DNA from: an uncultured Kangiella sp.
GTDB taxonomy: Bacteria; Pseudomonadota; Gammaproteobacteria; Enterobacterales; Kangiellaceae
Direction: 5' to 3'
NCBI GenBank assembly: GCA_950096615.1
Contig: CATNCP010000014.1
Coordinates: 1 to 60,983, forward strand
Length of the DNA: 60,983 nucleotides
In this document: piece after piece, positions 2,761 to 46,352 of the stretch
How positions within the stretch are numbered: position 1 is the first letter of the stretch
How the letters are laid out: every line of letters starts with the position of its first letter
Program-made: the position numbers and the translations under genes
The notes under the pieces: model-generated
Told to the model about the DNA's origin: nothing
Database searches by the model: none
The model's input: only the letters and a program-made list of their open reading frames with translations

Positions 2761-2880
2761 TAACCGTCACGAGCGAAGCAAAGACAAGGCATATTGTAAG
2801 CGAAAAGCGGAGCTTACCATGTAGGTAAGTGAGCATTTGCAGCTACAATATAACGCAGTATTTGCAAGCGCAGTAGGTTA
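2761..2880 (-). repeat. 120-bp palindromic element, copy 1
   Basis: An imperfect inverted repeat of 120 bp. The outermost arms TAACC (2761-2765) and GGTTA (2876-2880) include the prfB stop codon. Intermediate arms include ATATTGTA with TACAATAT. The exact centre is a hairpin CTTACC-ATGTA-GGTAAG (2813-2829), preceded by GCGGAG and followed by TGAGCA. The same architecture occurs at 4209-4329 and 46233-46352. Function is not known to me; 3' end formation, RNA stability or a small mobile repeat are possible. Confidence 0.7.
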
Positions 2881-3976
2881 TACGCCGGCCTTTAAGGATG
2901 CCTCGATAAAACTATCTAGATCACCATCCAACACCGCCTGAGTACTACTCGACTCATGCCCAGTTCTTAAATCTTTAATTCGAGACTGATCCAAGACATA
3001 CGACCGAATCTGGCTACCCCAACCGATATCAGACTTAGAGTCTTCCAGCGCCTGCTGCTCTTCGCGCTGCTTTTGCATCTCCAGCTCATACAACTTGGCT
3101 TTCATCATCTTCATCGCTTCAGCACGGTTTTTGTGCTGCGAGCGGTCATTCTGACATTGAACCACAATTCCTGTTGGAATATGCGTCAGTCGTATCGCCG
3201 AATCAGTTTTATTGACGTGCTGTCCACCTGCACCGCTCGCTCGGTAAGTATCCACGCGCAAATCGGCTGGATTCACTTCAATATCTATATCGTCATCCAC
3301 TTCCGGATAGGCAAACACCGATGCAAATGACGTATGACGGCGATTACCCGAATCGAAAGGTGATTTACGCACTAAACGGTGAACGCCAGTCTCGGTTCTC
3401 AGCCAACCGTAAGCATATTCGCCATCCACTTTGATGGTTGCGCTTTTAATTCCTGCGACATCGCCGTCGGACTCTTCGGTGACTTCAACCTTAAACCCAC
3501 GGCTCTCCGCCCAGCGCAAATACATACGAAGTAGCATACTCGCCCAATCTTGCGCTTCAGTACCGCCAGAGCCGGCTTGAATATCAAGGTAGGCATTGTT
3601 TTCGTCCATCTCGCCAGAGAACATGCGCCTAAACTCAAGTTTGGCTAACATTTTCTCCAGCCCTGCAACTTCAGCCTCAATCATCTCAGCACTATCGGCA
3701 TCATTCTCTTCCACCGCTATTTCTAACAAGTCAGAGTGGTCGGTAACGCCTTGTTCCAATTCTAGGATGGTATTTACAACGGCTTCTAATTTTGCACGCT
3801 CTTGACCCAACGCTTGGGCTCGCTCCTGTTCGTTCCACACATCAGGCTGCTCTAATTCTTTAGTGACTTCTTCTAAACGCTCTTGCTTGGCATCAAAGTC
3901 AAAGATACCCCCTAAGCGTAACCACACGCTCAGACATACCTTTCAAATGTTCTCTTATTGGATTAACTTCTAACAT
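2878..3976 (-). CDS. prfB: Peptide chain release factor 2, with programmed +1 frameshift
   Basis: RF2 recognises UAA and UGA and releases the finished peptide. It is encoded in two frames. The first runs from ATG at 3976 for 25 codons to an in-frame TGA (3901-3899). The second continues from GAC at 3900. The junction on the minus strand reads AGG GGG TAT CTT TGA C, the classical slippery CUU-UGA with an upstream Shine-Dalgarno-like AGGGGG. The joined protein has 365 residues, the same as E. coli RF2. The SPF stop-codon anticodon motif ([14 protein letters not shown]) and the GGQ motif ([15 protein letters not shown]) are intact. Alanine occupies the position that is Thr246 in E. coli K-12. 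Together with lysS it forms the usual operon. A GTG at 3927 in the second frame is not a real start. Confidence 0.96.
3899..3913 (-). promoter_or_regulatory. prfB autoregulatory frameshift site
   Basis: AGGGGG stimulator, then TAT, then CTT TGA C. By the known RF2 mechanism, low RF2 slows termination at UGA and P-site tRNA-Leu slips +1. The sequence matches every element of that signal. Confidence 0.95.
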
Positions 3977-4208
3977 GCTGCCCCAAATGCATTTTTAGCG
4001 GAATTTCCGCTCTTTTCTACGCAAAAGGGGCATATTTTAACCAATCACAGGACGGCTGCATAGCCATAAACTACTGCATACGGCTAAAATTATAAGAAAT
4101 GTCGGTTTGTAGGTGTGATGTTGGCTTTTAGGTGATACCAACTGAGAACTTAACAAGGTTATCAAGTCTGTTACCTTACCCTGTTCCCACAAGAGAAAAA
4201 GCGTAACA
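3977..4208. other. prfB upstream region, no gene seen
   Basis: About 230 bp between prfB and the second palindromic element, AT-rich, with no ORF of coding character. It should hold the prfB promoter; no convincing -35/-10 pair was picked. A short hairpin (GCGGAATTTCCGC) lies near 3998-4010. Confidence 0.4.
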
Positions 4209-4329
4209 TAGAGCTCATTAGCTCAGTGCTTAGGCGGCAAATTGAAATTTTAAGGACGGAGTTTACTAAGAGTAAATGACGACGAAAAATTCCAATTTAA
4301 CAAACTAAACACAACGATAAGGAGCTTTA
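4209..4329 (-). repeat. 121-bp palindromic element, copy 2
   Basis: Imperfect inverted repeat whose outer arm includes the stop codon of the DUF4442 gene (4327-4329). The pairing 4213-4220 with 4318-4325 matches 7 of 8, and AAATTG pairs with CAATTT further in. The central hairpin TTTACT-AAG-AGTAAA (4262-4276) has ACGGAG on its left and TGACGA on its right. Centre and length coincide with the copies at 2761 and 46233 although the stems differ in sequence. Confidence 0.68.
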
Positions 4330-4818
4330 ACGTCGTTTAGGGGTCCACGCCCATATCATTGTACACTCTATAGGCTCCTTCCCCTCTTCGTCGATTACCG
4401 ACACCGCCACTTCGACTTCGCCTTTCTCTAACGTCAGAATATCCTGTATTTGTGACTCGGTGAGATGAGCCTTTGCGACTAAATCACCTTTAGCTCTTTT
4501 TAGGAAATCGACCTTAAGCGTTTTAATCACTGGCACTTTATCGTCAGGAACATTCATCCCGACCACCATACCAGTTGCAGTTTCAGCGATGAGAGCCATG
4601 CCAGCCGCATGAATCGTGCCAATATGGTTTTGTACTTTTTTTCGATTTTGAAGCCTAAACTCTGACTGTGATTTCGTCAGCTGCAACACCTCAACTTTGG
4701 CAGTTCCTACTAGCTTAACCGTCCTTCTCAAAGCAAAGTTAAGTAATAGCTGCCGTAAAAACGAAGGGTATCCTTCTATTTTTTTCACTAATCTCGCTAA
4801 ACGGTTATCTTTACTCAT
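4327..4818 (-). CDS. DUF4442 hotdog-fold thioesterase-like protein
   Basis: A 163-residue cytoplasmic protein of the PaaI/YiiD-C-like hotdog group known as DUF4442. The segment NHIGTIHAAGMALIAETATGM (about residues 64-84) corresponds to the HxGxxHxxAxxxxAE active-site helix region of these acyl-CoA thioesterase-like proteins. DFLKRAKGDLVAKAHL and the closing WTPKRR are also typical. The substrate cannot be predicted. It is divergent from the DUF885 peptidase, with 171 bp between the starts, and its stop codon is part of palindromic element 2. Confidence 0.85.
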   Translation of the reverse strand: MSKDNRLARLVKKIEGYPSFLRQLLLNFALRRTVKLVGTAKVEVLQLTKSQSEFRLQNRKKVQNHIGTIHAAGMALIAETATGMVVGMNVPDDKVPVIKTLKVDFLKRAKGDLVAKAHLTESQIQDILTLEKGEVEVAVSVIDEEGKEPIECTMIWAWTPKRR

Positions 4819-4989
4819 AGAAGGCCCTTTTTCACTTTAATGACTCCAATAAAATTCAACTTAATGATGCTCTGGACTGACCAGATGATAATGACACAAC
4901 CTAGATTATGTGTAAAAAGATATTTCAAACTCGTATTAAGCAAAAATTTTGTGGTAATGTTTTTACACCTAACTCCAAAAGGAACCACA

Positions 4990-6837
4990 ATGACAAAAAT
5001 AACCCTACTAAGTCTAAGTATAGCCTTAGCACTAAGCGCTTGCTCAAACGACGAACATACTACTACCAAAACGCCAGTGGATACTGAAGTGACTTCATCT
5101 GAGACTGAAACTAAAAGCGAGATGACCGCGGAGCAAGCATCAGAGAAGTTAAACCAACTCTTTGCTGAAAATTTCGAAGCTGGTTTAGCCCTAAACCCAA
5201 TCCAAGCTACCGCAATTGGTGATAAACGCTTCAACGATCAGCTTCCAAACTTTTTATCGCCTGAATTTCAAAAGAAATCCCATGACTTTACGGTAAAGTG
5301 GCTGGACAAAGTCCAATCTATCGACAGAAGTTTACTGACAGGCCAAGATCGACTTAGCTATGATGTGTTCGTTTATCAGTCTGAAATGGCGCTAGAGGGC
5401 GAACAGTTTCCTGGTCACTTAATCCCAATTAACCAATCGAATAACATCGCAAGCTTTTTTGCACAACTGGGCTCAGGTAAAAGTTTACAGCCTTTTGAGA
5501 CTGTTGAAGACTATGAGAATTGGTTAAAGCGTGTTGATGATGGCGCCGTGCTAATGGACCAAGTCATCATCAATATGAACCAAGGTATTGAGCAAAATGT
5601 TGTTCAACCAAAAGCCTTGATGGAAAAAGTTATCCCACAGCTTAAAGCTCACATCGTAGACTCTCCTGAAGAAAGTGTGTTTTATCAGCCTATTACTAAT
5701 ATGCCAGAGTCATTTTCAGAAGAAGATAAAGAGCGCTTAACCGCTGCCTATAAGCAGTCGATTAAAGAAGACATCATTCCGACTTATAAAAAACTGCATG
5801 ACTTTATCAAGGATGACTACCTTGAGCATGCACGAGAAACCTTTGGTCTTAGCGAACAGCCAAATGGTGAAGCTTGGTATGATTACCAGTTAAAAACTTA
5901 TACGACCACAGGCCTCTCTGCGGACGATATTCACCAGTTTGGGCTAAATGAAGTCGCTCGGATTCGCTCTGAGATGGAACAGGTGATGCAAGAAGTTGAG
6001 TTTGAAGGAACTCTAGCTGATTGGTTTAGTTATGTTCAAACCAACCCTGAGTTCTACTATGACAATGAAGAAGATTTATTACAGGGCTACCGAGATCTCC
6101 AAACCAAGGTCAATAAGCTACTTCCAAGCATGTTTGATATCCAACCGAAAGCTGACTATGAAGTGCGTGCAGTAGAAGCGTATCGCGCTGAATCTTCTGC
6201 GGGTGCATCCTACATGCCAGGAAGCCCAGACGGTTCTCGCCCTGGCGTATTTTATGTCAACACATTCAATCTTAAAGGACAGCCCAAGTACGGCATGGAA
6301 ACTCTGTCGATCCACGAAGCAGCACCGGGTCATCACTTTCAAATATCGCTGCAACAAGAAGTGGAAGGCTTGCCGATGTTCAGACGCTTTGGTGGCTTGA
6401 GTGTGTTTTCTGAAGGCTGGGCTTTGTATGCGGAGTCAATCGGTAAAGAAATGGGCATGTTCACTGACCCAATGCAATATTACGGACGTTTAAGTGATGA
6501 AATGCTGCGAGCCATGCGTTTAGTGGTCGATACTGGTCTTCACGCCAAAGGCTGGTCGCGTCAGAAAGCCATCGACTACATGATGGAAAACTCGTCCATG
6601 GCTGATACGGATGTTGTATCAGAAGTTGAGCGTTATATTGCATGGCCAGGACAAGCGGTGTCTTACAAGGTTGGGCAACGTGAAATTAGCCGCCTTCGTG
6701 CCGAAGCAGAGAAAGAGCTTGGTGATAAGTTTGATATTCGAGAGTTCCATACTCAAATATTGATTGACGGCGCACTACCAATGCCTGTATTGAAAACAAA
6801 AATTCGTGAGTGGATTGACTCAAAGAAAAGTGCTTAG
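4990..6837 (+). CDS. DUF885 family zinc-peptidase-like lipoprotein
   Basis: A 615-residue envelope lipoprotein of the DUF885 family, proteins related to M32-type metallocarboxypeptidases and regarded as metal-dependent peptidases. The N-terminus MTKITLLSLSIALALSAC is a lipoprotein signal peptide with lipobox LSAC. The predicted metal site HEAAPGHH lies at residues 442-449, followed by a conserved EGWALYAE segment. I chose the ATG at 4990 rather than the in-frame ATG at 4840, because it has AAAAGGAACC just upstream and gives the signal peptide at the true N-terminus. The gene ends at a strong terminator. Substrate unknown; peptide scavenging in the periplasm is likely given the other peptidases here. 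Confidence 0.9.
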   Translation: MTKITLLSLSIALALSACSNDEHTTTKTPVDTEVTSSETETKSEMTAEQASEKLNQLFAENFEAGLALNPIQATAIGDKRFNDQLPNFLSPEFQKKSHDFTVKWLDKVQSIDRSLLTGQDRLSYDVFVYQSEMALEGEQFPGHLIPINQSNNIASFFAQLGSGKSLQPFETVEDYENWLKRVDDGAVLMDQVIINMNQGIEQNVVQPKALMEKVIPQLKAHIVDSPEESVFYQPITNMPESFSEEDKERLTAAYKQSIKEDIIPTYKKLHDFIKDDYLEHARETFGLSEQPNGEAWYDYQLKTYTTTGLSADDIHQFGLNEVARIRSEMEQVMQEVEFEGTLADWFSYVQTNPEFYYDNEEDLLQGYRDLQTKVNKLLPSMFDIQPKADYEVRAVEAYRAESSAGASYMPGSPDGSRPGVFYVNTFNLKGQPKYGMETLSIHEAAPGHHFQISLQQEVEGLPMFRRFGGLSVFSEGWALYAESIGKEMGMFTDPMQYYGRLSDEMLRAMRLVVDTGLHAKGWSRQKAIDYMMENSSMADTDVVSEVERYIAWPGQAVSYKVGQREISRLRAEAEKELGDKFDIREFHTQILIDGALPMPVLKTKIREWIDSKKSA

Positions 6838-6852
6838 CGCTTGTCACTTAGC

Positions 6853-6882
6853 AAAAAAAAGGAGCCTCTTGGCTCCTTTTTT
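6853..6882. terminator. Bidirectional intrinsic terminator, DUF885 / GNAT
   Basis: Stem GGAGCC-TCTT-GGCTCC, A run on the left and T run on the right. It serves both the plus-strand peptidase and the minus-strand repair operon that ends at 6904. Confidence 0.9.
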
Positions 6883-6903
6883 ATCCAACAAGTTTAACTC
6901 ACC

Positions 6904-7452
6904 TTATAACTTTATATTTTTAGCCAAGCAGCCATAAGCGACCTCATCTTGCCAGCGCCCATCAAAATTAAAATGTTCTTTGAAATACCCTTCACGTCGC
7001 ATTCCAAAATGCTCCATTAACTTCCACGATGGGATATTTCTCGGCTCGCAGTAAGCAATGATTTTATGACAAGGCCAGTCTCTTAATATTACCTGTAATA
7101 GCTCTTTAAGCGCCTCAGTACCGTAACCATGACCATGATAATGGCGATTAAATTTATAACCTATTTCTATGTGCTGATGTTGCTTGCTGGTATAGCGGAA
7201 ACCAATGTCGCCTATCAACTTAGCTTCCGACTTTAAAACAACAGCAGCACCCATCCAGCGACCTTCCTCACCTTTCCATCCTCCAAAATGGTTCAGAAAA
7301 ATATCATGCGCATCTTTTTTGTTAGAAACAGGTGCGATGTACTTCATTACCTCTGGATCCATGGCGTACTCGCAATAATCCTCGAAGTCAGACTCTTTCA
7401 GTGGACGTAATAATAACCGTTCGGTATCAATGTTTTCTTGCATAGAATGCAT
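6904..7452 (-). CDS. GNAT N-acetyltransferase, RimJ/RimL type
   Basis: A 182-residue acetyl-CoA dependent acetyltransferase of the RimJ/RimL branch: TERLLLRPLKESDFEDY at the start, IEIGYKFNRHYHGHGYGTEAL as the acetyl-CoA loop, and NIPSWKLMEHFGMRREGYF near the end. The substrate (ribosomal protein, antibiotic or small amine) cannot be told. The ATG at 7452 overlaps the addA-like stop as TGATG, so the two are probably translationally coupled. A GTG one codon upstream and an ATG at 7443 are alternative starts. It is the last gene of the minus-strand block that starts with alkB. Confidence 0.85.
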   Translation of the reverse strand: MHSMQENIDTERLLLRPLKESDFEDYCEYAMDPEVMKYIAPVSNKKDAHDIFLNHFGGWKGEEGRWMGAAVVLKSEAKLIGDIGFRYTSKQHQHIEIGYKFNRHYHGHGYGTEALKELLQVILRDWPCHKIIAYCEPRNIPSWKLMEHFGMRREGYFKEHFNFDGRWQDEVAYGCLAKNIKL

Positions 7453-10400
7453 CACCCAGGAATTTCAACAAACTGCTTCAATAATGGAAAGTATAACGCA
7501 ATTTTACTAGGGCGCTGCTCAAACTTACCCACAATGTGTTGATACTGCTTTAACTGCTTGGCATACCGTTCAACTTCAGCACTTATAAAACGGTCAACAT
7601 CTGAACCTTTGTGATCACCTGTTTTATAGTCGATTATCCAACGAGTCCCTTCCTCATCAATAAAGCTACGATCGATGATAAAGCTCCGAATCAATGCCCG
7701 GCCACTAGAGTCTGCGATCGCTCCAGTCAGCTCCCACTCACAGCGGGAATCTTCATGTTTATGCAGTAACCATTGGCCTTTTTTGTCATCTTTAACGTTT
7801 AACAGCGCTTGCTTTGCTTTCTGAAACGCTTGCGTCACTTCAATGTCCGTATGAAGCAGTTCTTGTAACTGAGTTTGAATCGTTTGATAACCACTGGCTT
7901 CAAGTTTTTCGAAACTTTGTCTTTGTAAAGCTATCAGCTCTAATTGTTTGTGAACCACTAAACCAACGACTCGGGCAATATCGCTCGCCCAATCGAAATC
8001 CACCTCTTCTTGCTCAATCAGCTCATCATCCATCCTCTGTAGCTGATTCTCTATTAGTGGTGCCTCAAAACTATTATTAAGTCGATACCACCCATCGTAG
8101 AAACTCAGCTCACTGCCCTCTTCAGTGTCGCTGATAATATTGGTAGAGACTTCCTTAAACTGCCTTTCAATAACGTTCTCATAATAGGTAAGTAAGTAAT
8201 GCAGTAATGAGCGCTTATCCACCGAGCTGTAAGACCACTCAGACTTTTCTTCGTCAAACTTAAGCTTGAGCTCGCAACTTAGTACCAACCGTTTTTTTGC
8301 ACGTGTAGCGGCCACGTATAGTAAGCGCGCATCCTCATACATCGCCTTTTTACTTTGAATGTCGCGTGCTAACTGATAGATAGGCTCTTTCTGTTCAGCT
8401 CCTTGAATAGGCGCCAATAAGTAGCCTGCCCTATCCTCAACGGTAAACTCTTCCCACAATAATAACTGATGGTCATCAGCTCTTTTTTGCCGTTGTAACG
8501 ATGGCAAGATGACGGTATCGAACTCCAGACCTTTCGACTTATGCATCGTCATGATTTCAACTTGAGCAGAGTCCGCTTGCTGGTCTGCAAACAGCTCTGT
8601 TACAGCAGTATTGATACGCTCGAAAGTTAACGGCCACTCAGCTTGTTCTAAACTTATCAGCAACTCAAATACCGCATAAACATCTTTCTGCTCAGCATTA
8701 TCCAGTAATACGCTAGGCCCACCTAGCGCTAACCAAGCAGCTTCTACAAGTTGACTTAAAGGCTTTCGCCCCGCACTCTCTAATATTGGAGCTATAATTC
8801 TTTTAGCTTTACTCAGGCGTAAAGTAGCATCGTCATCAAGTTGTTTGACCGCCTCAAATTCATCCAACCACTTCCAAAAGTGATGACCAAAAGCTCGGTG
8901 TAAATGTGTGATGTGCGACAACTTAATACCAACCAAAGGAGATTTTAATAATGCAGCCCATGCTATTCCGTCTTGCGGGTGAAGCAATAAGCGTGCCAAT
9001 ACCATTGTGTCGCTAACACACGGTTTATGCGATAAATACTCCATATCCTTGGCGTAATAACTGATGCTTGATGCTCTAAGTTGTGCCATTAAGTCTTGAG
9101 CATGGTTTCGACCTCTGACAAGCACCGCTATGGATTCATCAGGTTGTTTTATCGTGATTTTCTGTATGGTTTCTGCTAATTGCTCGGCTTCACTTTTACC
9201 ACCAGTATCGAAACTCACGTTGAAATCAACAAAGTGCTGCTCATCATCAGGTTTCATGGCTTCTGCTTTGCTGTAGCTCACCGCACCTAGCAGCGCATCA
9301 TCATTGGCAGGAAAAATTTTCTCAAAACGGCGATTAACCCAATCAATAATAGACGGTGATGAACGAAAGTTTGCAGTTAATTGTAGCGGCGTAACAGGCA
9401 AGCCATTAATACCCTCCTGCTGCGTCTTAATAAACAAGCCAACATTCGCCTCACGAAAACGATAAATAGACTGCATGGGATCGCCTACTAAGAATAAAGT
9501 GCGACCATCTCCAAGTTGCCAACCAGAAATAAGTTTGCTTAATAATTGATATTGCGTAAAAGACGTATCTTGAAATTCGTCAACCAGCAAATGCTTAATT
9601 TGATAATCTAACTTTAGCGCTAACTCTGATGGCTCATCAAAAAAACCCAGCGCCCTATCAGCAGCTAGTGCAATTTCTATAAAGTCAGCTTCAGCATTTG
9701 ACTGAAAATCGACTGTTAGCGCCCCAGAGACCAACCTCAAAAGATGTAACAGTGAATAAAGAATTTCCTGCTGCTCAGGGCTGTAAACAGGTTTAGGCAA
9801 GGATACAATATCACTTAGAGTTTCTGCGAACTCGGGAATTTCAGCCCATTCGGCAAACAGTTCTTTTAACTCAGTCTTGAGTGCCTTGCCTACTTTTTTA
9901 TCCTCACCCTGTAAATCGCCATCGGCAAGAAGGCCGATCTTTTTATTGAGTTGTTTTTTAAAGGTGCCTGATTTGGTTAAGCAAAAAGTGGCAACTGCTT
10001 TCCACTGCTCTAAGTTTTGATAATCTAACTCAGGTAAGGAACTAATATCCTTAAGTGCTGACAGTTCATGTTCCGCATCAAGAAAACCTGACGCAAAGTG
10101 TATTCCACGGAGTAAGCCACTTGCTTCTATTGTTGGATAGAATGATTGAAGCCTTTGCAGCCTCATCTGTGCAATCTGATTAATACCATCTTCTAAAATA
10201 TCAATATCCAGTTCGCCAGCACCAAGTAAACGCAACCACTGATCTCGTTTCCCAAGCATTTGCGCCAATAAACCGATTAATTTTTCAACCTGATTATCAA
10301 GGTGTGCCAACAGTTTTAAGATATGAGTACCGTAATCAGCATCATCTAAATAGCTCAAAATAGACTCTGCTGCACGACGGTATGATTCTTGTGGGTAGTT

Positions 10401-10835
10401 CGTAATAGATAGCGAGCCGCCTGAATGACTCAAAACCGGCATCTGGTTAGCAATCATACTCGATAAGGAGTCGATAGTGGTTACCCTTAAGCGATGACTG
10501 TTTTGTAATAAATTCCACTCTAGTTCTGAGTCACGCTGAAGGACTTGCTTCGCTAATTGCCATGTGGTTTTTTGATGCGCATCCTCAGGCTCATTTCCTT
10601 TCGCCATCAACAAGGATTCGATTAAACGATGTCGCATTTCAGCAGCAGCTTTTCTCGTAAAAGTCATCGCAACGACTTCTTCTGGATGCTCAACGGTTGT
10701 TAGAACATTCAGTATACGCTGCGTCAGAAGACTGGTTTTACCCGCTCCGGCAGGAGCTTGGACAATAAATGACTCTTCTGCGCTGATGGCTTGTTGACGC
10801 ACCAGCTGATCAGGCGGTGACATTAACTTAGTCAT
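7452..10835 (-). CDS. UvrD/REP-type helicase-nuclease, AddA-like
   Basis: A 1127-residue ATP-dependent helicase with C-terminal nuclease, of the AddA/RecB kind, that would process double-strand breaks with the neighbouring AddB-like subunit. Walker A APAGAGKT is at residues 27-34, Walker B LLVDEFQDTS near 415, then GDPMQSIYRFREANV, TMHKSKGLEFDTV and LLYVAATRAKKRL (motifs IV-VI). The nuclease motif IIDYKTGD is near residue 1070, with the later QYQHIVGK helix. I chose ATG 10835, which overlaps the addB-like stop by 8 bp and has GAGGGGGTGAGC before it; a start at 10877 would overlap by 50 bp. Annotators may call it exonuclease V beta; the AddB-type partner argues for AddA. Confidence 0.88.
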   Translation of the reverse strand: MTKLMSPPDQLVRQQAISAEESFIVQAPAGAGKTSLLTQRILNVLTTVEHPEEVVAMTFTRKAAAEMRHRLIESLLMAKGNEPEDAHQKTTWQLAKQVLQRDSELEWNLLQNSHRLRVTTIDSLSSMIANQMPVLSHSGGSLSITNYPQESYRRAAESILSYLDDADYGTHILKLLAHLDNQVEKLIGLLAQMLGKRDQWLRLLGAGELDIDILEDGINQIAQMRLQRLQSFYPTIEASGLLRGIHFASGFLDAEHELSALKDISSLPELDYQNLEQWKAVATFCLTKSGTFKKQLNKKIGLLADGDLQGEDKKVGKALKTELKELFAEWAEIPEFAETLSDIVSLPKPVYSPEQQEILYSLLHLLRLVSGALTVDFQSNAEADFIEIALAADRALGFFDEPSELALKLDYQIKHLLVDEFQDTSFTQYQLLSKLISGWQLGDGRTLFLVGDPMQSIYRFREANVGLFIKTQQEGINGLPVTPLQLTANFRSSPSIIDWVNRRFEKIFPANDDALLGAVSYSKAEAMKPDDEQHFVDFNVSFDTGGKSEAEQLAETIQKITIKQPDESIAVLVRGRNHAQDLMAQLRASSISYYAKDMEYLSHKPCVSDTMVLARLLLHPQDGIAWAALLKSPLVGIKLSHITHLHRAFGHHFWKWLDEFEAVKQLDDDATLRLSKAKRIIAPILESAGRKPLSQLVEAAWLALGGPSVLLDNAEQKDVYAVFELLISLEQAEWPLTFERINTAVTELFADQQADSAQVEIMTMHKSKGLEFDTVILPSLQRQKRADDHQLLLWEEFTVEDRAGYLLAPIQGAEQKEPIYQLARDIQSKKAMYEDARLLYVAATRAKKRLVLSCELKLKFDEEKSEWSYSSVDKRSLLHYLLTYYENVIERQFKEVSTNIISDTEEGSELSFYDGWYRLNNSFEAPLIENQLQRMDDELIEQEEVDFDWASDIARVVGLVVHKQLELIALQRQSFEKLEASGYQTIQTQLQELLHTDIEVTQAFQKAKQALLNVKDDKKGQWLLHKHEDSRCEWELTGAIADSSGRALIRSFIIDRSFIDEEGTRWIIDYKTGDHKGSDVDRFISAEVERYAKQLKQYQHIVGKFEQRPSKIALYFPLLKQFVEIPG

Positions 10836-27877: not shown

Positions 27878-27880
27878 CTC

Positions 27881-38444: not shown

Positions 38445-38472
38445 TAAACTTACTGGTTTTCAATACGTCAAT

Positions 38473-38504: not shown

Positions 38505-38550
38505 ATGTAAGCAACTTTCAATAAACGATGCACTAATAGCTATGCACCAT

Positions 38551-40845
38551 TTAGGCACTCAGCTTTTCACGGCTCTCTAGCGCAGCCTCTACGAGGTTTT
38601 TAAGCGCCGGTCTAACTTGCTCCCAATTTCTGGTTTTCAAGCCACAGTCAGGGTTTATCCATAGCTGATCGATAGGAATATGCTTTGCAGCTTGTTCAAT
38701 CAACTCGCTGACCTCTTCTTTCGAAGGGATACGTGGCGAGTGAATGTCATAAACGCCTGGACCAATTTCGTTAGGATATTTAAAGTCATTGAAAATACGC
38801 AGTAATTCCATATCTGAGCGAGATGACTCAATCGTAATCACATCCGCATCCAGTCGTGCAATGGAGTCTATGATTTCATTAAACTCGGAATAACACATGT
38901 GTGTGTGAATTTGAGTCGTATCAGCAACGCCTGCCGCCGATAATCTGAAAGCGTTCACTGACCACTCCAAATACTGCGGCTGCTCACTCTTTCGCAACGG
39001 TAATAACTCTCGAAATGCAGGTTCATCAATCTGAATCACATCAATGCCATTCTTTTCTAAGTCCAATACTTCATCGCGTAACGCTAATGCTATTTGATCT
39101 GCAATATCAGGTGCGGACAAGTCTTCACGCTCAAATGACCAAGCTAGGATAGTGGTCGGCCCGGTTAACATGCCTTTGACTTTTTTCTCAGACAGTGACT
39201 GAGCATATTTAGACCACTCAACGGTTATCGCTTGTTTACGTGAGACATCACCATAAATGATAGGCGGCTTAACGCAACGGCTACCGTAACTTTGTACCCA
39301 ACCAAACTGCGTAAAAGTAAAGCCGTTAAGCTGCTCACCAAAATACTCAACCATGTCGTTTCGCTCAGCTTCACCATGCACCAGCACGTCTAGACCTATC
39401 GCTTCTTGCTCGTGAATAGCTTGCTGGATCTCTTGCTGAATAGCTTGGGTATATTCCTGTTCATTAATATCTGCCGCTTTAAAAGCACGACGAGCCTGAC
39501 GAATCGTATCGGTTTGCGGAAATGAGCCAATTGTTGTCGTAGCCAACAGCGGGAAGTTGAAATGATTCCGCTGGGCTATTTTTCTCTGACTAAACTCAGA
39601 TTGTCTTTGGCGATCCTTGTCATTGATCTTGCTAACTCTATCTTGAACTTCTGAGTTATGCACTCGTTGAGAAGCTTGCTTTGACTTCACCGCTGCATCA
39701 CTAGCTTGTATGGCTTGTAACGCCGCTGCTTCGCCTTTATTGAGCGCTAAACTCAAGTTGGCGACTTCTTGCACCTTCTGTTCTGCGAAGGCAAGCCAAG
39801 CTCGCAGTTCACCATCAAGTTTCTGCTCACTGTCTAAATCCACTGGACTGTGCAGTAACGAACAGCTGGTCGCAACCCATAGATTGTCATCATAACGAGC
39901 TTTTAATGACTCAAGCACCTGCACACTCTGTCTCAAGTCATTGCGCCATACATTACGACCATTCACAATACCTACTGACAACACCTTAGATTTTGGCCAA
40001 TAATTCACAACCTCTGATAATGCTTCTACACCGCCACTCACGACATCCAGGTGTAAACCATCCACAGGAAGCTCTGCTACTCGGTCGAACTTATCAGCGA
40101 TATGACCAAAATAAGTAGTTAACAGTAATTTTACTTCTGCTTCTGAACCAAGCTCGGTATAGGCTTGAGTAATCGCATTCAGCCATTGGTCATCAAGGTC
40201 TAAAGCTAGTATTGGTTCCTCGATTTGCACCCACTCGACACCTTCCGCTTGCAAGTGAGTTAATAAGTGTTGGTAGGCTTTTACTAACTTTGGTAACAAG
40301 CCTAACTTATCAAACTCACTTTTATCGCGAGCCTTACCCAACCATAAATAACTTACCGGGCCAATGAGTTGCAGCTTGAGTTTCGTAGAGTGCTGTTTCG
40401 CCTGCTCTATTTGCGGTGCTAACAATTCTAGATTCAATGAAAATGCTTGGTCGGCTGTAAACTCTGGGACAATGTAATGATAATTGGTGTTAAACCATTT
40501 GGTCATTTCGCTAGGTTGTACCTGAGCCCCTTCAGGAGCAGAGCCGCGGGCAACTCGAAAATAATTATCCAGTAAATTGTCGGCTTTACCCTCCTCAAAC
40601 CGCTCTGGTACAACGCCTAGCAATATTGAAGTGTCCAGAACCTGATCATAAAAAGAAAAGTCGCCAACCGTTAGCCAGTCGATGCCCTTTTGTTGTGCTG
40701 ACTGCCAGTTGCTTTGGCGAATAGTTTGAGCAACTTGCTGCAATTCATTTTGTGAAATTTCTTTTCGCCAGTATTTCTCTAGCGCAAACTTAAGCTCTCG
40801 CTTGGTACCAATTCGTGGTAATCCTAGTATGTGTGACTGTGCCAT
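38551..40845 (-). CDS. metE: Cobalamin-independent methionine synthase
   Basis: Transfers methyl from 5-methyltetrahydropteroyl-tri-glutamate to homocysteine, the last step of methionine synthesis without B12. The 764-residue product (753 in E. coli) starts AQSHILGLPRIGTKRELKFALE. It carries the C-terminal zinc ligands in THMCYSEF (HxC) and NPDCGLKTR, and the catalytic-domain segment IQIDEPAFRE. I chose ATG 40845, with GAGGAT upstream, rather than the in-frame start at 40929, which lies inside the regulatory leader. A MetJ-type operator and hairpins precede it. Confidence 0.97.
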   Translation of the reverse strand: MAQSHILGLPRIGTKRELKFALEKYWRKEISQNELQQVAQTIRQSNWQSAQQKGIDWLTVGDFSFYDQVLDTSILLGVVPERFEEGKADNLLDNYFRVARGSAPEGAQVQPSEMTKWFNTNYHYIVPEFTADQAFSLNLELLAPQIEQAKQHSTKLKLQLIGPVSYLWLGKARDKSEFDKLGLLPKLVKAYQHLLTHLQAEGVEWVQIEEPILALDLDDQWLNAITQAYTELGSEAEVKLLLTTYFGHIADKFDRVAELPVDGLHLDVVSGGVEALSEVVNYWPKSKVLSVGIVNGRNVWRNDLRQSVQVLESLKARYDDNLWVATSCSLLHSPVDLDSEQKLDGELRAWLAFAEQKVQEVANLSLALNKGEAAALQAIQASDAAVKSKQASQRVHNSEVQDRVSKINDKDRQRQSEFSQRKIAQRNHFNFPLLATTTIGSFPQTDTIRQARRAFKAADINEQEYTQAIQQEIQQAIHEQEAIGLDVLVHGEAERNDMVEYFGEQLNGFTFTQFGWVQSYGSRCVKPPIIYGDVSRKQAITVEWSKYAQSLSEKKVKGMLTGPTTILAWSFEREDLSAPDIADQIALALRDEVLDLEKNGIDVIQIDEPAFRELLPLRKSEQPQYLEWSVNAFRLSAAGVADTTQIHTHMCYSEFNEIIDSIARLDADVITIESSRSDMELLRIFNDFKYPNEIGPGVYDIHSPRIPSKEEVSELIEQAAKHIPIDQLWINPDCGLKTRNWEQVRPALKNLVEAALESREKLSA

Positions 40846-40872
40846 TTTTCCATCCTCAACTTTATCCAGAAC

Positions 40873-40939
40873 AAAAAAGAGCCCGAAAGCTCTCTTTTGT
40901 ATTAGTAATACAATTGGAATAAACATCAAAAAGATGTTT
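40873..40939 (-). promoter_or_regulatory. metE leader with three hairpins, one terminator-like
   Basis: On the minus-strand transcript, in order: AAACATC-5-GATGTTT (40939-40921), TTGTATT-3-AATACAA (40913-40897), then a 10-bp stem with one GU pair (40898-40873) ending in a T run and placed about 28 nt before the ATG. The second and third hairpins share two bases. No promoter fits between the last hairpin and metE, so it must be transcribed with metE. Attenuation is an inference. Confidence 0.5.
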
Positions 40940-40955
40940 AGACGTCTAAATGGCT
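40932..40955 (-). promoter_or_regulatory. MetJ operator (three tandem met boxes)
   Basis: AGACGTCT (40940-40947) is the perfect met-box consensus. It is flanked by adjoining 8-mers AGATGTTT (6 of 8) and AAATGGCT (5 of 8). MetJ with S-adenosylmethionine binds tandem 8-bp boxes, and metE is a classical target. Confidence 0.85.
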
Positions 40956-40983
40956 ATTATCATTATTTATCGTATAAAAGCAA
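40956..40983 (-). promoter_or_regulatory. Candidate metE promoter
   Basis: TTGCTT (40983-40978) and GATAAT (40961-40956) with a 16-bp spacer. The start point would fall inside the met boxes, as expected for a MetJ-repressed promoter. Confidence 0.55.
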
Positions 40984-41044
40984 CCTTATTTGTAAACTAA
41001 TTTTGATCTGCCTTGGTAAACAATTAACCAGTACACATTGACCA

Positions 41045-42118
41045 TTATTCAGCCGAGTATGTCACTCTGTAAATCTTGCCGAAGCCATCATCAGAAATCA
41101 GTACAGAGCCATCCGGCATTTGAATAACATCATTCGGCCTGCCTTTAACTTCGCCATCAATAAGCCAGCCAGTCACGAAGTCATCTTGAGAGTTAACGCC
41201 TTCTCCATCTAAAGTAAGGTGAACGACTTTGTAGCCAACCTTAGTACTGCGATTCCAAGAGCCATGCTGAGTAACAAGCATGGTGTTTTGATACTTTTCA
41301 GGGAACATGTCGCCGGTATAGTAAAGCATTCCTAATGGTGCTACGTGTGCTTGGAACTCCCACTCTGGCTTAGTGAACTCTCGGTCACCTAGTTTTTCGC
41401 CGAATGCAGGATCCATAAAGTCATCACCATGAACGTATGGGAAGCCAAAGAACTCGCCTAACTCTGATACACGGTTCAGTTCGCAGGCAGGCTCATCATC
41501 ACCTAACCAGTCACGCCCATTATCAGTGAACCAAAGCTCCTTGGTTTGTGGATGCCAATCGAAGCCAACACTATTACGAACACCAGTCGCTACCACTTCC
41601 TTCTCAATCTTTTCGGCATCAACGTCTATGCGGATAATTACGCCATAGCCGTCGTCGTCACAAACGTTACAAGGTACTCCGATGGGAATATAGAGCTTAC
41701 CGTCAGGACCAAATTTAATGTATTTCCATCCATGATGACTGTCATCAGGCAAGTCGTCATACACGACCTCTGGCTCTTGAGGATCTTTATAATGCTTGTC
41801 GATATCTTTAAAGCGTAAGATTTTATCTACTTCCGCTACATATAGATCTCCATCACGATATGCCACACCGCTTGGCATGTAGAGATCTTCGATGATGGTA
41901 TACACTTTGTCAGCTTTAAAATCGTTATCGGTATCTTCAACCGCATACACCTTGCCCGCCTTGCGGGTGCCGACATAAACCACCCCTGAATCAGACAGCG
42001 CCATCTGTCTCGCTCCTTCAATCTCCGGCGCAAATAGTTCGATATTAAAGTTCTCAGGGACTTCAGCCGCCTGCAAGCTGCTTGCAAGCAATAAACCTAG
42101 CGCAGCAAAATATTTCAT
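41045..42118 (-). CDS. Secreted PQQ-dependent sugar (sorbosone/glucose) dehydrogenase-like protein
   Basis: A 357-residue exported beta-propeller protein. The signal peptide is MKYFAALGLLLASSLQAA. Blades include ARQMALSDSGVVYVGTRKAGKVYAV, GRPNDVIQMPDGSVLISDD and the PQQ-site-like segment GVRNSVGFDWHPQTKELWFTDNGRDWLGDDEPACELN. The family oxidises aldoses or sorbosone, but the real substrate is unknown. A CNVCD pair looks like a haem motif but lacks the His, so it is more likely a disulfide. ATG 42118 has GGAGAT upstream. Confidence 0.87.
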   Translation of the reverse strand: MKYFAALGLLLASSLQAAEVPENFNIELFAPEIEGARQMALSDSGVVYVGTRKAGKVYAVEDTDNDFKADKVYTIIEDLYMPSGVAYRDGDLYVAEVDKILRFKDIDKHYKDPQEPEVVYDDLPDDSHHGWKYIKFGPDGKLYIPIGVPCNVCDDDGYGVIIRIDVDAEKIEKEVVATGVRNSVGFDWHPQTKELWFTDNGRDWLGDDEPACELNRVSELGEFFGFPYVHGDDFMDPAFGEKLGDREFTKPEWEFQAHVAPLGMLYYTGDMFPEKYQNTMLVTQHGSWNRSTKVGYKVVHLTLDGEGVNSQDDFVTGWLIDGEVKGRPNDVIQMPDGSVLISDDGFGKIYRVTYSAE

Positions 42119-42211
42119 CAATCATCTCCACTAAACAATATTTCATACAGAATAAAACGTGTGCAACATAAATAGCAAATTCACTTACATAAAGTGACAA
42201 CACATCAGACA

Positions 42212-42236
42212 TAAAAAAAGCGACCCGAGGGTCGCT
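42212..42236 (-). terminator. Intrinsic terminator of the DPP-IV gene
   Basis: Stem GCGACCC/GGGTCGC (42220-42235), then seven Ts on the minus strand. Confidence 0.9.
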
Positions 42237-42253
42237 TAATTATCAGTAAAGGC

Positions 42254-44524
42254 TTACTTTAAATGCTCTTCAAAGTAATCAGTTATTGTATTAAACACGT
42301 GTGTCCGAGTTTTCTGACCCCAGATAGAATGCTTACTACCAGGATAGTTCATCATATCGAACGGCTTATTGGCATCCTGCAATGCTTTAAAAAGCTTAGT
42401 GCTGTTCGTGAACAAGACATTATCATCAGCCATGCCATGGATAATCATTAAATCACCTTTAAGACCACTCAAGTACGGGAACACATTACTTTGCTCGTAG
42501 CCTTCTTTATTATTGTCAGGATGATCCAAATAACGCTCAGTGTAATGAGTATCATACAAATACCAATCAGTTACTGGCGCCACGGAAACCCCTGCTTTAA
42601 AGACATCAGGCTCTTTAAACATACTCATAATCGTCATGTAGCCACCGTAAGACCAACCGAACATACCAATACGCTCAGCATCAACAAATGGCAACGTTTT
42701 CAAAAACTCAACGCCCTTAACCTGATCCGTTACCTCAACATCACCTAGCTTGCGGTAAATAGGATCTTCAAACTTCTTACCACGGTTCCACGAGCCACGA
42801 TTATCCAATGAGAAAATCACGAAACCGCGATCTGCCATCATATGGTGCCAGTAGGTATTACGAGCGCCCCACGTATTGGTCACTCGCTGAGCATGCGGCC
42901 CACCGTACACATCAACCACTACTGGATACTTCTTGCCCTTCTCCATGTTTGTTGGCTTGTATAGGCGATAATGCATAGTCTGTCCGTCTTCCGCTTCAAT
43001 CGTACCGAATTCAGGCTTAGCAGCATTTTGGTAATAACTAAAGTAAGGATGGCTACTGTCCAGCTTGTTTTCTTCAAGCCAAGTAACGAGTTCACCATCT
43101 GCTTTTCTTAAACTGACCTGTGGTGGCTGTTGAACCGATGAGAAGTAATCTACAAATAAAGACATGTTTTTAGAAAAGCTTACACTGTGGACGCCAGCAT
43201 CATCAGTAACTTTCGTTATGTCGCCTTCGCCGTTCATTGGAACCGAATACAGGTGTTGTTCAAGAGGGCTTTCTTTATTGGCATCAAAATAGACCAAACC
43301 TTTATCTTCATCAACGCCATAAAGCTTATCAACTACCCACTCACCGTCCGTCAGCTGGTTTATTAAGTTGCCTTTTAGGTCATACAAATACAGGTGACGG
43401 TAGCCGCTGCGCTCAGAACTCCAGACAAAAGCATTGTGACGCTTTAAGAAGTACAAATCCTTAGTTAGGTTAATCCAAGTATTTGATGTTTCGGTCAAGA
43501 TTTCATGTGATTTGCCTGTTTCTGCATCGGCGAACATCAATTTAAGGGTTTGCTGATCTCGGCTTTGACATTGGAATGACAGGCGGTTTGAATCTCTTAA
43601 CCACTTTACTCGTGGGATATAAATATCCGTTTCTTCACCAACCTCTTGTGGAGAAGTCTCGACCCACGTCGTTTTACCGCTCTCCAAGTCCAGCACAGCA
43701 AGCTTAATCAACACATTATCGGTGCCAGTGCTTGGGTATCGTTGCTCAAACACTTCAAAATCTTCAGCGTTAATCTCATAACGCTTCTCAATATTGACCG
43801 GGGACTCATCAACCTGCAAGTAGGCCACCTTTTTGCTGTTTGGCGACCACCAGTAGCCTGTTAAGCGTCCCATTTCTTCCTGCGCCACAAATTCAGCCAT
43901 ACCGTTTTTGATCGCGCCTTCGCCATCGGTGGTTAATTGACGCTCTTCACCGGTCTCAATATTAACCATGAAGATGTCTTGGTCACGGATAAAGGAAACA
44001 CTTTTGCCATCTGGGGAAAGTTTTACGTCTGTTTCGTAGGCATCTGTCTGAGTCAGTTGTTTGGTAGCATCGCTTCCCGACTTGGTTAAGTCATACACAA
44101 AAATATCGCCACCCAACGGGAATAATAAGGTTTCGCCATCATCGCCCCAGTAGTAGCTAATGATGCCTTTTGCGAACAAACGCATACGCTCGCGGCGAGC
44201 TTTTTCTTCTGCCGACAAATTTTCTTCACCCGGCATTAAATCCGCTGAATCAACCAGCATCCGAGACTGTTTGTCCGCAAGGTTGTATTCCCATAAATCG
44301 AGACGCTCTTGCTCGTCTTCTTTTCCTTTCAGGAAGGTTACTCGCTTACCATCAGGCGACAATTTAACGGAACGCGGCGCGGGCCCCGTCAGCGACGGAT
44401 CAGCGTAAATACGCTCAACCGTTAGCTTGCTATTATTAGAATCTTCGGCTGCTGCACTATTCATACCACTAGCTCCTGCAATGGCCAGTGCTGCGCAACC
44501 CAATAAGGACTTAACATAACTCAT
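42254..44524 (-). CDS. Dipeptidyl peptidase IV-like S9B serine peptidase
   Basis: A 756-residue exported peptidase that would release X-Pro or X-Ala dipeptides. The signal peptide ends near MNSAAA. An eight-bladed-type beta-propeller (about 40-480) contains RRERMRLFAKGIISYYW and MAEFVAQEEMGR, the latter holding the paired glutamates that bind the substrate N-terminus. The alpha/beta-hydrolase domain has nucleophile Ser625 in GWSYGGYM, Asp in GMADDNV and His in SKHSIWG. Its dipeptide products fit import by the POT transporter at 15.4 kb. It has its own terminator. Confidence 0.95.
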   Translation of the reverse strand: MSYVKSLLGCAALAIAGASGMNSAAAEDSNNSKLTVERIYADPSLTGPAPRSVKLSPDGKRVTFLKGKEDEQERLDLWEYNLADKQSRMLVDSADLMPGEENLSAEEKARRERMRLFAKGIISYYWGDDGETLLFPLGGDIFVYDLTKSGSDATKQLTQTDAYETDVKLSPDGKSVSFIRDQDIFMVNIETGEERQLTTDGEGAIKNGMAEFVAQEEMGRLTGYWWSPNSKKVAYLQVDESPVNIEKRYEINAEDFEVFEQRYPSTGTDNVLIKLAVLDLESGKTTWVETSPQEVGEETDIYIPRVKWLRDSNRLSFQCQSRDQQTLKLMFADAETGKSHEILTETSNTWINLTKDLYFLKRHNAFVWSSERSGYRHLYLYDLKGNLINQLTDGEWVVDKLYGVDEDKGLVYFDANKESPLEQHLYSVPMNGEGDITKVTDDAGVHSVSFSKNMSLFVDYFSSVQQPPQVSLRKADGELVTWLEENKLDSSHPYFSYYQNAAKPEFGTIEAEDGQTMHYRLYKPTNMEKGKKYPVVVDVYGGPHAQRVTNTWGARNTYWHHMMADRGFVIFSLDNRGSWNRGKKFEDPIYRKLGDVEVTDQVKGVEFLKTLPFVDAERIGMFGWSYGGYMTIMSMFKEPDVFKAGVSVAPVTDWYLYDTHYTERYLDHPDNNKEGYEQSNVFPYLSGLKGDLMIIHGMADDNVLFTNSTKLFKALQDANKPFDMMNYPGSKHSIWGQKTRTHVFNTITDYFEEHLK

Positions 44525-44689
44525 AACCCTATATTCCCCATAATTTTCAGATAAGGCATCATAGAATTTACCGCACTAACAATCAACGCTGATTCAGCCG
44601 GAATTTTTTCGACTTAAGTGCCGGTAATGGCTAGTTTCGACTAATGATTTATTACATAATGCGGACTTTATGTCAGTTCGAGAGTCACT

Positions 44690-45643
44690 ATGCATACTGT
44701 ATCCGGTCGCTGGCAATTGGGCCTTACCTTATCACTTACCACCGTCTTTCTGTGGGGCTTGCTCCCTATCGCTCTCAAGGGTGTTTTACTGCAAATGGAC
44801 GCAGTCACCGTAACTTGGTATCGCTTTGCTGTAGCAGCTATCTTCGTCTTTTTCTATATGGCGCTACGCAAAAGAATCCCTGACTTTAGAGCGATTAAAG
44901 GGCTTATTGGTATATTGATGCTGATAGCGATACTTGGGCTCTGCGCTAATTATGTTTTCTACTTATTTGGTGTAGACAAAATTACCCCAAGTAGTGCCCA
45001 GGTCATGATCCAAACTGCACCAATGTTTATGCTTTTGGGTGGTTTACTAGTCTTCAAAGAAAGCTTCAATAAATGGCAATGGCTTGGCTTTGCATCTTTT
45101 GTCATCGGCTTGGTTCTATTCTTCAATATGCGCTTTACAGAGATTTTAAGCAATCTTGATGGCGCCTATACCGTCGGTTTGTTTTGGATGTTGCTAGCGG
45201 CAATTACATGGGCCGCTTACGCCTTAGCACAAAAGCAATTATTAAACACCTTCACCTCGAACCAAATCATGTTCATCATCTATATCACCAGCACTATTAT
45301 TCTAGTGCCTTGGAGTGAACCGAGTCAGGTCGTATCGTTAAATGCTATTGGCTGGGCGCTACTGACCTTTTGCTGCTTAAACACCATAGTAGCGTACGGC
45401 GCTTTCGCTGAAGCTCTGGCTCATTGGGAAGCGTCACGCGTCAGCGCTATTTTAGCGTTGACGCCACTGGTAACTATTATGTCGATGAAAGTAGTTGCTT
45501 ACTTCTATCCAGACTACCTTCCGGATGAACCGATGAATGCCTTAAGCATCGTAGGTTCCATCATGGTCGTTCTTGGCTCAGCCACAACAGCTGTGGCCGG
45601 AAAGAAGAAATCAAAACTCATAAAGAAATCCCCATCACCTTAA
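44690..45643 (+). CDS. EamA/DMT-family transporter
   Basis: A 317-residue inner-membrane protein with about ten hydrophobic segments in two EamA repeats. The first contains FLWGLLPIALKGVLLQMDAVTVTWYRF, the second AAITWAAYALAQKQLL and EALAHWEASRVSAILALTPLVT. It belongs to the drug/metabolite transporter superfamily and probably exports a metabolite or amino acid that cannot be named. The C-terminus is basic (GKKKSKLIKKSPSP). GAGAG precedes ATG 44690. Confidence 0.9.
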   Translation: MHTVSGRWQLGLTLSLTTVFLWGLLPIALKGVLLQMDAVTVTWYRFAVAAIFVFFYMALRKRIPDFRAIKGLIGILMLIAILGLCANYVFYLFGVDKITPSSAQVMIQTAPMFMLLGGLLVFKESFNKWQWLGFASFVIGLVLFFNMRFTEILSNLDGAYTVGLFWMLLAAITWAAYALAQKQLLNTFTSNQIMFIIYITSTIILVPWSEPSQVVSLNAIGWALLTFCCLNTIVAYGAFAEALAHWEASRVSAILALTPLVTIMSMKVVAYFYPDYLPDEPMNALSIVGSIMVVLGSATTAVAGKKKSKLIKKSPSP

Positions 45644-45664
45644 ACCTTACCGCTACCCCAAAAC

Positions 45665-45692
45665 AAAAAAGGCTCCTAGAAAGGAGCCTTTT
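45665..45692. terminator. Bidirectional intrinsic terminator, EamA / lipoprotein
   Basis: Stem GGCTCC-TAGAAA-GGAGCC (45671-45688), A run on the left and T run on the right. Confidence 0.9.
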
Positions 45693-45708
45693 ACATCATC
45701 TTAAATCT

Positions 45709-46095
45709 TTATCGTCTTGCGATAAAATCATCAATCCTCACTTTAAGGTTATTGACCCAACGTGGGTAGCTTCTGTGAATGTTTTGACCGTCGTAATCCA
45801 AATTTATACTATCAACGTAAATGATACTGTAACTCTCCATGCTATACGGAATCTTAACCACAGCCGTATGTGCTCTTAAGTTAAGCTTACCTCGAATCAA
45901 CCCAGGCTTAAGTGGTGTCATTTCCCAGCCTAGAGATTGTCCAGCACGCAGGATACTCAATTTAACATCCTCTAAAGTCTCACCTTCATCAACTAAATAC
46001 TCAATACTGTGATCGTTGAGGTTAGTTAATGGATGGCTGGTATTACAAGCGCTTAAAAAAACTGCCAACAATATTGATAGAATGATAATTCTCAT
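45709..46095 (-). CDS. Hypothetical lipoprotein
   Basis: A 128-residue lipoprotein (signal MRIIILSILLAVFLSAC, lipobox LSAC). The mature part is a small alpha/beta domain with LEDVKLSILRAGQSLGWEMTPLKPGLIRGKL, then VKIPYSMESYSIIYVDSINLDYDGQNIHRSYPRWVNNL. This reads like a conserved small envelope protein seen in several proteobacteria, but no function is known to me. It lies downstream of lpd after a terminator and ends at the shared terminator with the transporter. Confidence 0.78.
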   Translation of the reverse strand: MRIIILSILLAVFLSACNTSHPLTNLNDHSIEYLVDEGETLEDVKLSILRAGQSLGWEMTPLKPGLIRGKLNLRAHTAVVKIPYSMESYSIIYVDSINLDYDGQNIHRSYPRWVNNLKVRIDDFIARR

Positions 46096-46136
46096 TGTAT
46101 TTTATTTCCCTTTTATCGTTTATTATTACCGTTACA

Positions 46137-46160
46137 CAAAAGCCTCCAACAGGAGGCTTT
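46137..46160 (-). terminator. Intrinsic terminator downstream of lpd
   Basis: Stem GCCTCC-AACA-GGAGGC (46142-46157) with T-rich end on the minus strand. It lies about 190 bp past the lpd stop, beyond the palindromic element. Confidence 0.75.
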
Positions 46161-46232
46161 AAAACTAAACAAACTTATTTCAATTAAGTTTTTTGGCTTT
46201 CTTTATAGACGATAAGCCTACAAACCCAATCT

Positions 46233-46352
46233 ATAAGCTTAGACTTTTTCGTAGTAGCTAGGCGTTGGCGCGCGGCAATGCGGAGTGTATATCAAATACA
46301 TGAGCACTTGAGCACGCCAACAACAACGCTAATGCGAAAAAAGATTGCTTAT
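46233..46352 (-). repeat. 120-bp palindromic element, copy 3
   Basis: Directly abuts the lpd stop codon (46353-46355). The outer arms ATAAGC (46233) and GCTTAT (46347) pair, then CTTTTTCG with CGAAAAAAG, then GTTGGCG (46264-46270) with CGCCAAC (46315-46321). The central hairpin is TGTAT-ATCAA-ATACA (46286-46300) between GCGGAG and TGAGCA. Length, symmetry and the flanks of the hairpin equal those of the copies at 2761 and 4209. Confidence 0.7.

Follow-up and report, generated by a model that had tools for sequence, protein, structure and literature searches.

Stop-codon-abutting palindromes of an uncultured Kangiella sp. are probable copies of an ERIC-type folding element

What are the long palindromes that abut stop codons in the genome of an uncultured Kangiella sp.? 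The stretch analyzed here (the window) is the 60,983 nucleotides of contig CATNCP010000014.1 (assembly GCA_950096615.1), and it carries three such palindromes, elements 1 to 3, each at the stop codon of a minus-strand gene. The initial annotation, made from the sequence alone, proposed selection for structure and offered a mobile repeat, an RNA element of the 3' untranslated region (3'-UTR), and a protein-binding site as possible functions. Our analysis indicates that the three palindromes are probably copies of a nonautonomous miniature folding element of the ERIC type, exchanged and stop-anchored in this genus. This reading agrees in part with the initial annotation, from which both the relation to ERIC and the wide spread of the family were absent. 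ERIC (enterobacterial repetitive intergenic consensus, also named IRU or RU-1) is an imperfect palindrome of about 127 bp that forms a single long hairpin and has long been known from gut bacteria. It is presented, in the cited portions of two papers, as a miniature mobile element of Enterobacteriaceae and Vibrionaceae (PMC10969869, PMC2229807).

Structure and covariation of the elements

All three palindromes, which had been placed by inspection at about 120 bp each, were recovered within two or three bases by the covariance model R2 (Table 1). The training rows of R2 exclude the three window elements, which were included in its guide model, R1. No fourth element was found in the 61-kb window at E ≤ 10 in the R2 search. 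On the strand that reads GGAG, an element runs from an outer arm through the left side of a joint (J1), an inner arm, and the left side of a second joint (J2; GGAG) to a short hairpin, and it continues mirrorwise through the right side of J2 (TGA), the inner arm, the right side of J1, and the outer arm. The J1 internal loop common to the three window elements is GMGGC/AACAAA, and the J2 loop is GGAG/TGA; the central stems, with constant CGGAG and TGA, read as first described. Folded as single-stranded DNA, the elements gave z scores of -2.07 to -3.27 in six folds relative to dinucleotide shuffles, and 0 to 7 of 200 shuffles folded as well as the elements did.

Element 1 lies in the gap between prfB and lysS, which are both on the minus strand and run in the same direction. 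The stop codon is part of the outer arm in elements 1 and 2, as had been claimed, and the lpd stop codon starts one base past the end first assigned to element 3. The labels prfB and lpd were confirmed by NCBIfam; the middle gene, called DUF4442 in the initial annotation, had only a sub-threshold hotdog thioesterase match there.

Table 1. Positions of the three elements and their parts in the window
Feature	Position	Strand	Basis or remark
Element 1	2759..2883	+ (GGAG strand)	R2 80.4 bits, E 5e-26, model 1-124; fold
J1 5' side of element 1, CAAGGC	2785..2790	+	Read from sequence
Element 1 core: CGGAG, central hairpin CTTACC/GGTAAG, TGAG	2808..2833	+	Core-pattern match
prfB stop codon, within outer arm of element 1	2878..2880	-	
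Element 2	4208..4331	+	At stop of small hotdog-type gene; R2 67.7 bits, E 2.4e-21
Element 2 core: CGGAG, TTTACT/AGTAAA hairpin, TGA	4257..4279	+	Pattern match 4258-4279 plus sequence
Stop codon of small hotdog-type gene, within outer arm of element 2	4327..4329	-	
Element 3	46232..46354	+	At lpd stop codon; R2 71.1 bits, E 1.4e-22
Element 3 core: CGGAG, TGTAT/ATACA hairpin, TGAG	46281..46304	+	Core-pattern match
lpd stop codon, adjoining element 3	46353..46355	-	

Twelve copies in the organism's own genome were found with two core patterns and aligned along the joints. The first pattern gave 13 matches, compared with 5 in the reversed control, and 6 of the 13 (L002, L004, L005, L008, L010, and L011) were dropped as not folding as elements. 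The second gave 11 matches, compared with 0 in the control, and 1 (C6) was dropped. The 12-copy alignment was used instead of a MAFFT alignment of the three window copies, in which element 3 was misplaced. Its invariant and near-invariant columns fell within the joints and in one portion of the hairpin, the joints being the most conserved part of the element. The arm sequences differed among the copies, and the outer ends were not conserved in sequence. Both sides had changed in 37 of 40 pairs, and the covariation score was 0.620, compared with 0.214 ± 0.021 for shuffled alignments and at most 0.201 with the pairing partners slid.

The search of the genome and of its relatives with a covariance model, suggested at the outset, returned 33 matches at E ≤ 0.1 in the own genome (2.57 Mb, 68 contigs), two of them overlapping. 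Matches were found in 20 of the 20 genus genomes searched, the own genome included, with 12 to 55 in each at E ≤ 0.01. From several hundred matches, 96 were taken as the genus set: all 30 own loci plus the top-scoring loci of the other genomes, each spanning model positions 1 to 124 and measuring 122 to 129 bp. Removal of rows at least 75% alike left 59 nonredundant copies, 57 of which were scored for stop codons after two edge cases were dropped; position tests in the own genome used the 30 of 33 matches that had loci.

Covariation was also evident in larger sets. The 93 distinct rows from the 96 genus copies scored 0.778, compared with 0.204 ± 0.007 after shuffling, in an alignment that was fitted to the model and is biased towards it. 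A mixed set of 98 rows scored 0.556, compared with 0.146 ± 0.006. These controls, in 12, 93, and 98 rows, rule out chance palindromes. The initial argument that arms and hairpins differ yet stay paired, and that structure is therefore under selection, is upheld by scores far above those of the shuffled and slid controls.

In the 59 nonredundant genus copies, the first 5' base of J1 and the 3' base facing it were G-A in 45, A-G in 7, G-G in 3, T-A in 3, and A-A in 1. The forms of J1 also pair up, GAGGC and GCGGC occurring mostly with AACAAAG and AAGGC mostly with AACGCAG. This pattern suggests that J1 is a noncanonical paired module with alternative forms. A plain double-strand protein-binding site, one of the options first raised, is unlikely, because the stem sequence is free while the unpaired joints are fixed. 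The inner arms of the same copies are nearly all Watson-Crick paired (838 pairs, 12 G.T, 13 A.C, and 42 other mismatches), a feature that would suit ordinary, unselected palindromes whose pairing is kept by quasipalindrome correction, a mechanism of palindrome-templated mutation. Such correction would erase unpaired joints, yet the joints are conserved and vary as matched sets, and the placement at stop codons described below is far from random in position and orientation; we consider this explanation very improbable.

Two side observations concern the own-genome copies. The overlapping pair of matches (G000:C44 4865-5097) is perhaps a nested or duplicated copy. Near another copy, a TwoAYGGAY RNA match (L055 446-564, minus strand; G000:C2) scored 48.5 against a curated cut-off of 43.

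Folded strand and placement at stop codons

A pair change on the folded strand can pass via G.T, which appears as A.C on the other strand, and the scoring used to align the arms treats the two alike. Read on the GGAG strand, the outer arms of the 59 genus copies contained 64 G.T and 19 A.C; where Watson-Crick pairs flanked the position, the counts were 47 and 1. These wobbles were spread over several positions. The outer arms of 52 copies from outside the genus gave 53 G.T versus 19 A.C (37 versus 4 when Watson-Crick flanked), and their inner arms gave 16 versus 7. A G.T adjacent to the hairpin is a conserved feature in its own right (83 of 93 rows). The outer-arm excess of G.T over A.C therefore indicates that the GGAG strand, which is antisense to the abutting gene, is the strand that folds. 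This result fits RNA and single-stranded DNA alike.

In the own genome, the stop codon of an opposite-strand gene lay -13 to +8 bases from the model end in 24 of 30 copies, or in 25 when every 90-codon open frame was admitted as a gene. Across the genus, an opposite-strand stop lay within -15 to +10 in 45 of 57 nonredundant copies (44 with that stop only and 1 with stops at both ends), and none of the 57 had a same-strand stop alone. Random placement within the same gap would be expected to give 9.9 anchored copies in the 54 usable gaps; 44 were observed. The place and orientation of the genus elements are therefore fixed, and the enrichment at stop codons envisaged by the initial annotation is real. 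Outside the genus, an opposite-strand stop was found 60 to 89 bases from the element center in 55 of 117 copies and a same-strand stop in 23 of 117, indicating a less strict preference.

This placement invites comparison with attC sites, which are defined by terminal core boxes and an integron integrase. If the elements were attC-like recombination sites, they would be opposite-strand hairpins behind a gene stop that a site-specific recombinase reads, and they do follow the same general logic as attC: a position behind the stop codon, conservation of structure over sequence, and a folded strand opposite the gene. The genus elements, however, have other joints, and the abutting genes examined are housekeeping genes present across the genus, not cassettes, with no cassette context seen. 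We give this explanation hardly any weight.

Exchange at gene ends and relatives beyond the genus

The 3' end of lpd was inspected visually in 19 genomes, and 18 could be read. An element of the element 3 type was present in G000 (the own genome), G001, G007, G008, and G016, and other elements occupied the same place in G002, in G005, and in the group G006/G012/G014/G019. G018 contained a mixed form and G009 a remnant consisting of outer arms only; no element was seen by eye in G010, G011, G013, G015, or G017. At the prfB end, the element 1 type was found in G000, G005, and G009 and, lacking the central hairpin, in G018. Other elements or fragments stood there in G001, G002, G006, G007, G011, G012, G013, G014, G016, and G019, and none was seen in G015 or G017 (G010 was unclear and G003 was cut). 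Since different elements occupy the same gene ends across species, elements have been exchanged between species at fixed gene ends.

Pairwise comparison of 94 copies gave 331 element pairs that aligned over at least 60 bases, 101 of them with a homologous gene flank (flanks of up to 650 bases were compared). In 46 listed pairs the gene flank was homologous and the elements were dissimilar; one of these pairs consists of two neighboring copies in one locus. Separately, an unrelated palindromic repeat containing GTCATTGCGAGC lies directly behind the prfB stop codon in G004 (L189) and G008 (L190).

Could the elements instead belong to the mRNA of the gene that they abut? A cis-acting 3'-UTR RNA element serving stability or 3'-end processing would be selected on the sense mRNA and not for mobility. 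The fixed orientation, the immediate contact with the stop codon, and the position of element 1 in the prfB-lysS gap are all in keeping with this explanation, as is the effect on transcript levels, through an RNase E site, that the cited portions of reviews describe for ERIC copies at gene 3' ends in Yersinia (PMC10969869, PMC2229807). On the sense strand, however, the favored G.T wobbles are A.C mismatches, and one and the same gene end bears different elements in different species and none in some. Nor was an intrinsic terminator (a GC-rich stem followed by a T run) called at any of the three elements, the nearby calls lying elsewhere. With folding on the strand antisense to that gene, the simple 3'-UTR option of the initial annotation is weakened, and we regard it as rather unlikely.

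An ERIC-type element would be expected to duplicate a TA dinucleotide when it inserts. Of 57 genus copies, 34 had in-register TA at each tip; the corresponding counts were 35 for AA, a composition effect, and 12 for AT. In a mirror test, TA was present in 3 of the 11 well-paired tips among 23. In G049, a genome of the same order, the same outer end was found at 37 sites, and the 30 sites viewed held dispersed, similar copies. Among the 28 of its copies with both ends found, 15 had TA at each tip and 25 at one tip or more. The mobile-repeat option of the initial annotation is supported by the covariation, the exchange at gene ends, and the dispersed copies of this genome. A pair of facing ends in G049 was considered as an autonomous partner and proved to be two separate elements. 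About half of the 30 copies viewed carry a second palindromic block of about 65 bases at one fixed spot of the 3' inner arm (for example, L369, L374 [twice, in tandem], L382, and L396; in L385 the block is on the other side).

A core pattern was present in at least 119 stretches of named genomes. The hosts include Pseudomonas, Stutzerimonas, Halomonas and its relatives, Salinicola, Marinospirillum, Methylophaga, Nitrosomonadales, Mariprofundales, Vibrio, and several Bacteroidota. By eye, most of the copies viewed, in the first part of this wider set, fold in the same tiers; some have broken or mixed arms (L237, L239, L252, and L256), and the pattern matches L230 and L232 are not elements. R1 gave a full-length match in 62 of 68 wider loci, although that in L241 lay elsewhere than the pattern. 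Its scores were 64.7 bits for a Chitinophaga copy and 68.4 bits for one from a Bacteroidetes bin, compared with about 30 for core-only matches. A Pedobacter-labeled copy (L273) resembles a Pseudomonas one. When the own phylum was sampled evenly, with at most 11 candidates scored per genome, 113 of 299 genomes contained a match at E ≤ 1e-4. Several element matches stand close together in one contig in Mariprofundales (L257 3711-4008, L254, and L278), and a RyhB match above its cut-off lies right beside an element copy in G060 (L229 830-894, minus strand).

Relation to ERIC and proposed mechanism

ERIC was first described in 1990-91, and we know of no enzyme that moves it. De Gregorio and colleagues reportedly found, in 2005, TA duplication and an overlap of ERIC with stop codons in a preferred orientation. 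R2 was built from 98 copies, none of them picked as ERIC; its training does include one Vibrio locus and two loci with a CTTAC-type or similar core (L226 and L227). It nonetheless matched an Escherichia coli ERIC copy end to end at 25.5 bits (E 8.2e-7 in 5.6 kb), where R1 gave 18.5 bits. Of 30 ERIC loci, 25 were matched at full length (model 1-124; E 4e-6 to 2.2e-14). Full matches scored 27 to 49 bits and core-only matches about 17, so the arms and joints carry extra signal.

The two kinds of element share a length of about 125 bp, one long hairpin, the core GGAG-CTTAC..GTAAG-TGA, and a related J1 joint. ERIC copies, too, end somewhat more often at opposite-strand stops (9 of 30 loci) than at same-strand stops (4 of 30). 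In contrast to ERIC, the genus elements have arm sequences that are unrelated to the ERIC consensus and variable among their own copies, an inner arm that is longer in the R1 and R2 alignments, and a much stricter anchoring at stops. The ERIC core pattern was present in 5 of 197 own-order genomes, with 0 copies in 13 genus genomes (the own and 12 others). The host differs as well, Kangiella being outside the two families named for ERIC in the passages cited above; ERIC is listed for E. coli, Yersinia pestis, and Vibrio cholerae in the cited portion of a further paper (PMC2267715). We interpret the genus elements as one branch, strongly diverged, within a superfamily of mobile hairpins of the ERIC type. 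The family of folding elements of about 125 bases is widespread in bacteria and probably takes in ERIC, and no description of so wide a family was found among the matches listed in the open-licence literature.

The same E. coli ERIC copy (L112 1981-2104, in the dxs-yajO gap) matched the Rfam family RF02818, V_AS5, at 52.5 bits (E 3e-9). The match covers positions 1 to 129 of 129 on the GGAG strand but is below the curated cut-off of 96. Since the match runs over the full length, the family V_AS5 (Vibrio RNA AS5, typed antisense) probably represents an ERIC element. None of the own-type copies tried matched V_AS5, and neither the window nor the other own-type copies tried (L055, L231, and others) matched any known Rfam family.

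These matches bear on a further explanation, an antisense RNA gene, in which transcription of the GGAG strand would yield a small, folded RNA pointing towards the neighboring gene's 3' end. The wobble asymmetry points to that strand, the V_AS5 resemblance, though below the cut-off, is to an RNA typed antisense, and promoter-like sites lie on the GGAG strand upstream of all three window elements (2718-2746, 4061-4090, and 46062-46089 and 46074-46103). The number of such sites, however, is at the shuffle level (2 versus 1.2 ± 1.2; 3 versus 3.0 ± 1.7), the neighboring genes are many and unrelated, and Rfam matches are lacking for the own-type copies tried. An antisense RNA gene is accordingly improbable.

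Other repeats offered less. REP palindromes, given as 20 to 40 bp in the cited portion of one paper (PMC3733652), are likewise intergenic palindromes with many copies, but the genus elements measure 122 to 129 bp and have three-tier stems. The Bordetella repeat BRE was considered as a relative, and no link was seen. BLAST found no relatives of element 1 in phages and none of element 3 in plasmids.

Several results count against the ERIC-type reading or its breadth. In the 93-row genus set, one of five measures, the number of double-change pairs, was hardly raised (39 versus 36.4 in the control, with 7 of 500 shuffles as high). The inner arms in the genus showed no strand preference (12 G.T versus 13 A.C). 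Stop anchoring is not universal, since in G049 a stop 60 to 89 bases from the center was on the opposite strand in 1 of 14 copies and on the same strand in 3 of 14. Among element pairs without flank homology, none exceeded 83% similarity over 113 bases or 85% over 75, so recent movement in the genus is not shown. No clean filled and empty pair of sites with a target duplication was obtained, and a search in G049 found no autonomous partner. Of the 30 ERIC loci, R2 missed 1 and recognized 4 through the core alone. Finally, every Bacteroidota record examined is a metagenome-derived assembly, in which misbinning is possible.

With these points weighed, a nonautonomous ERIC-type element remains the probable identity of the three palindromes. 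Its GGAG strand folds into one long hairpin of three stems that are free in sequence and required to pair. The fixed unpaired joints (GGAG/TGA; GMGGC/AACAAAG or alternatives) would probably be read by an enzyme or binding protein. In this genus the end of the element supplies or keeps the stop codon, and the 3' untranslated region begins with the element. We infer that movement would occur in trans, with TA as the target and a mover that reads the folded single strand. At gene ends, mRNA decay may be altered, by analogy with the effect reported for ERIC in Yersinia.

More tentatively, all of these elements may belong to one bacterial superfamily of structure-coded mobile hairpins, spread over many Pseudomonadota and perhaps Bacteroidota, of which ERIC would be a single twig. 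Its members would be recognized as a folded single strand through conserved noncanonical joints rather than by sequence, with arms free to change, and in some lineages they would be delivered to stop codons in one orientation or retained there alone. We lowered our estimate for this broader proposal slightly because all Bacteroidota records examined are metagenome derived. If ERIC is one branch of such a superfamily, its other branches come within reach of covariance models, and the enzyme responsible for movement may come to light in a genome whose copies are recent. Families with freely diverging arms can escape repeat finders that rely on sequence. The strict placement at stop codons and the folded strand together limit, in ways that can be tested, the properties of that enzyme and the effects expected at mRNA ends.

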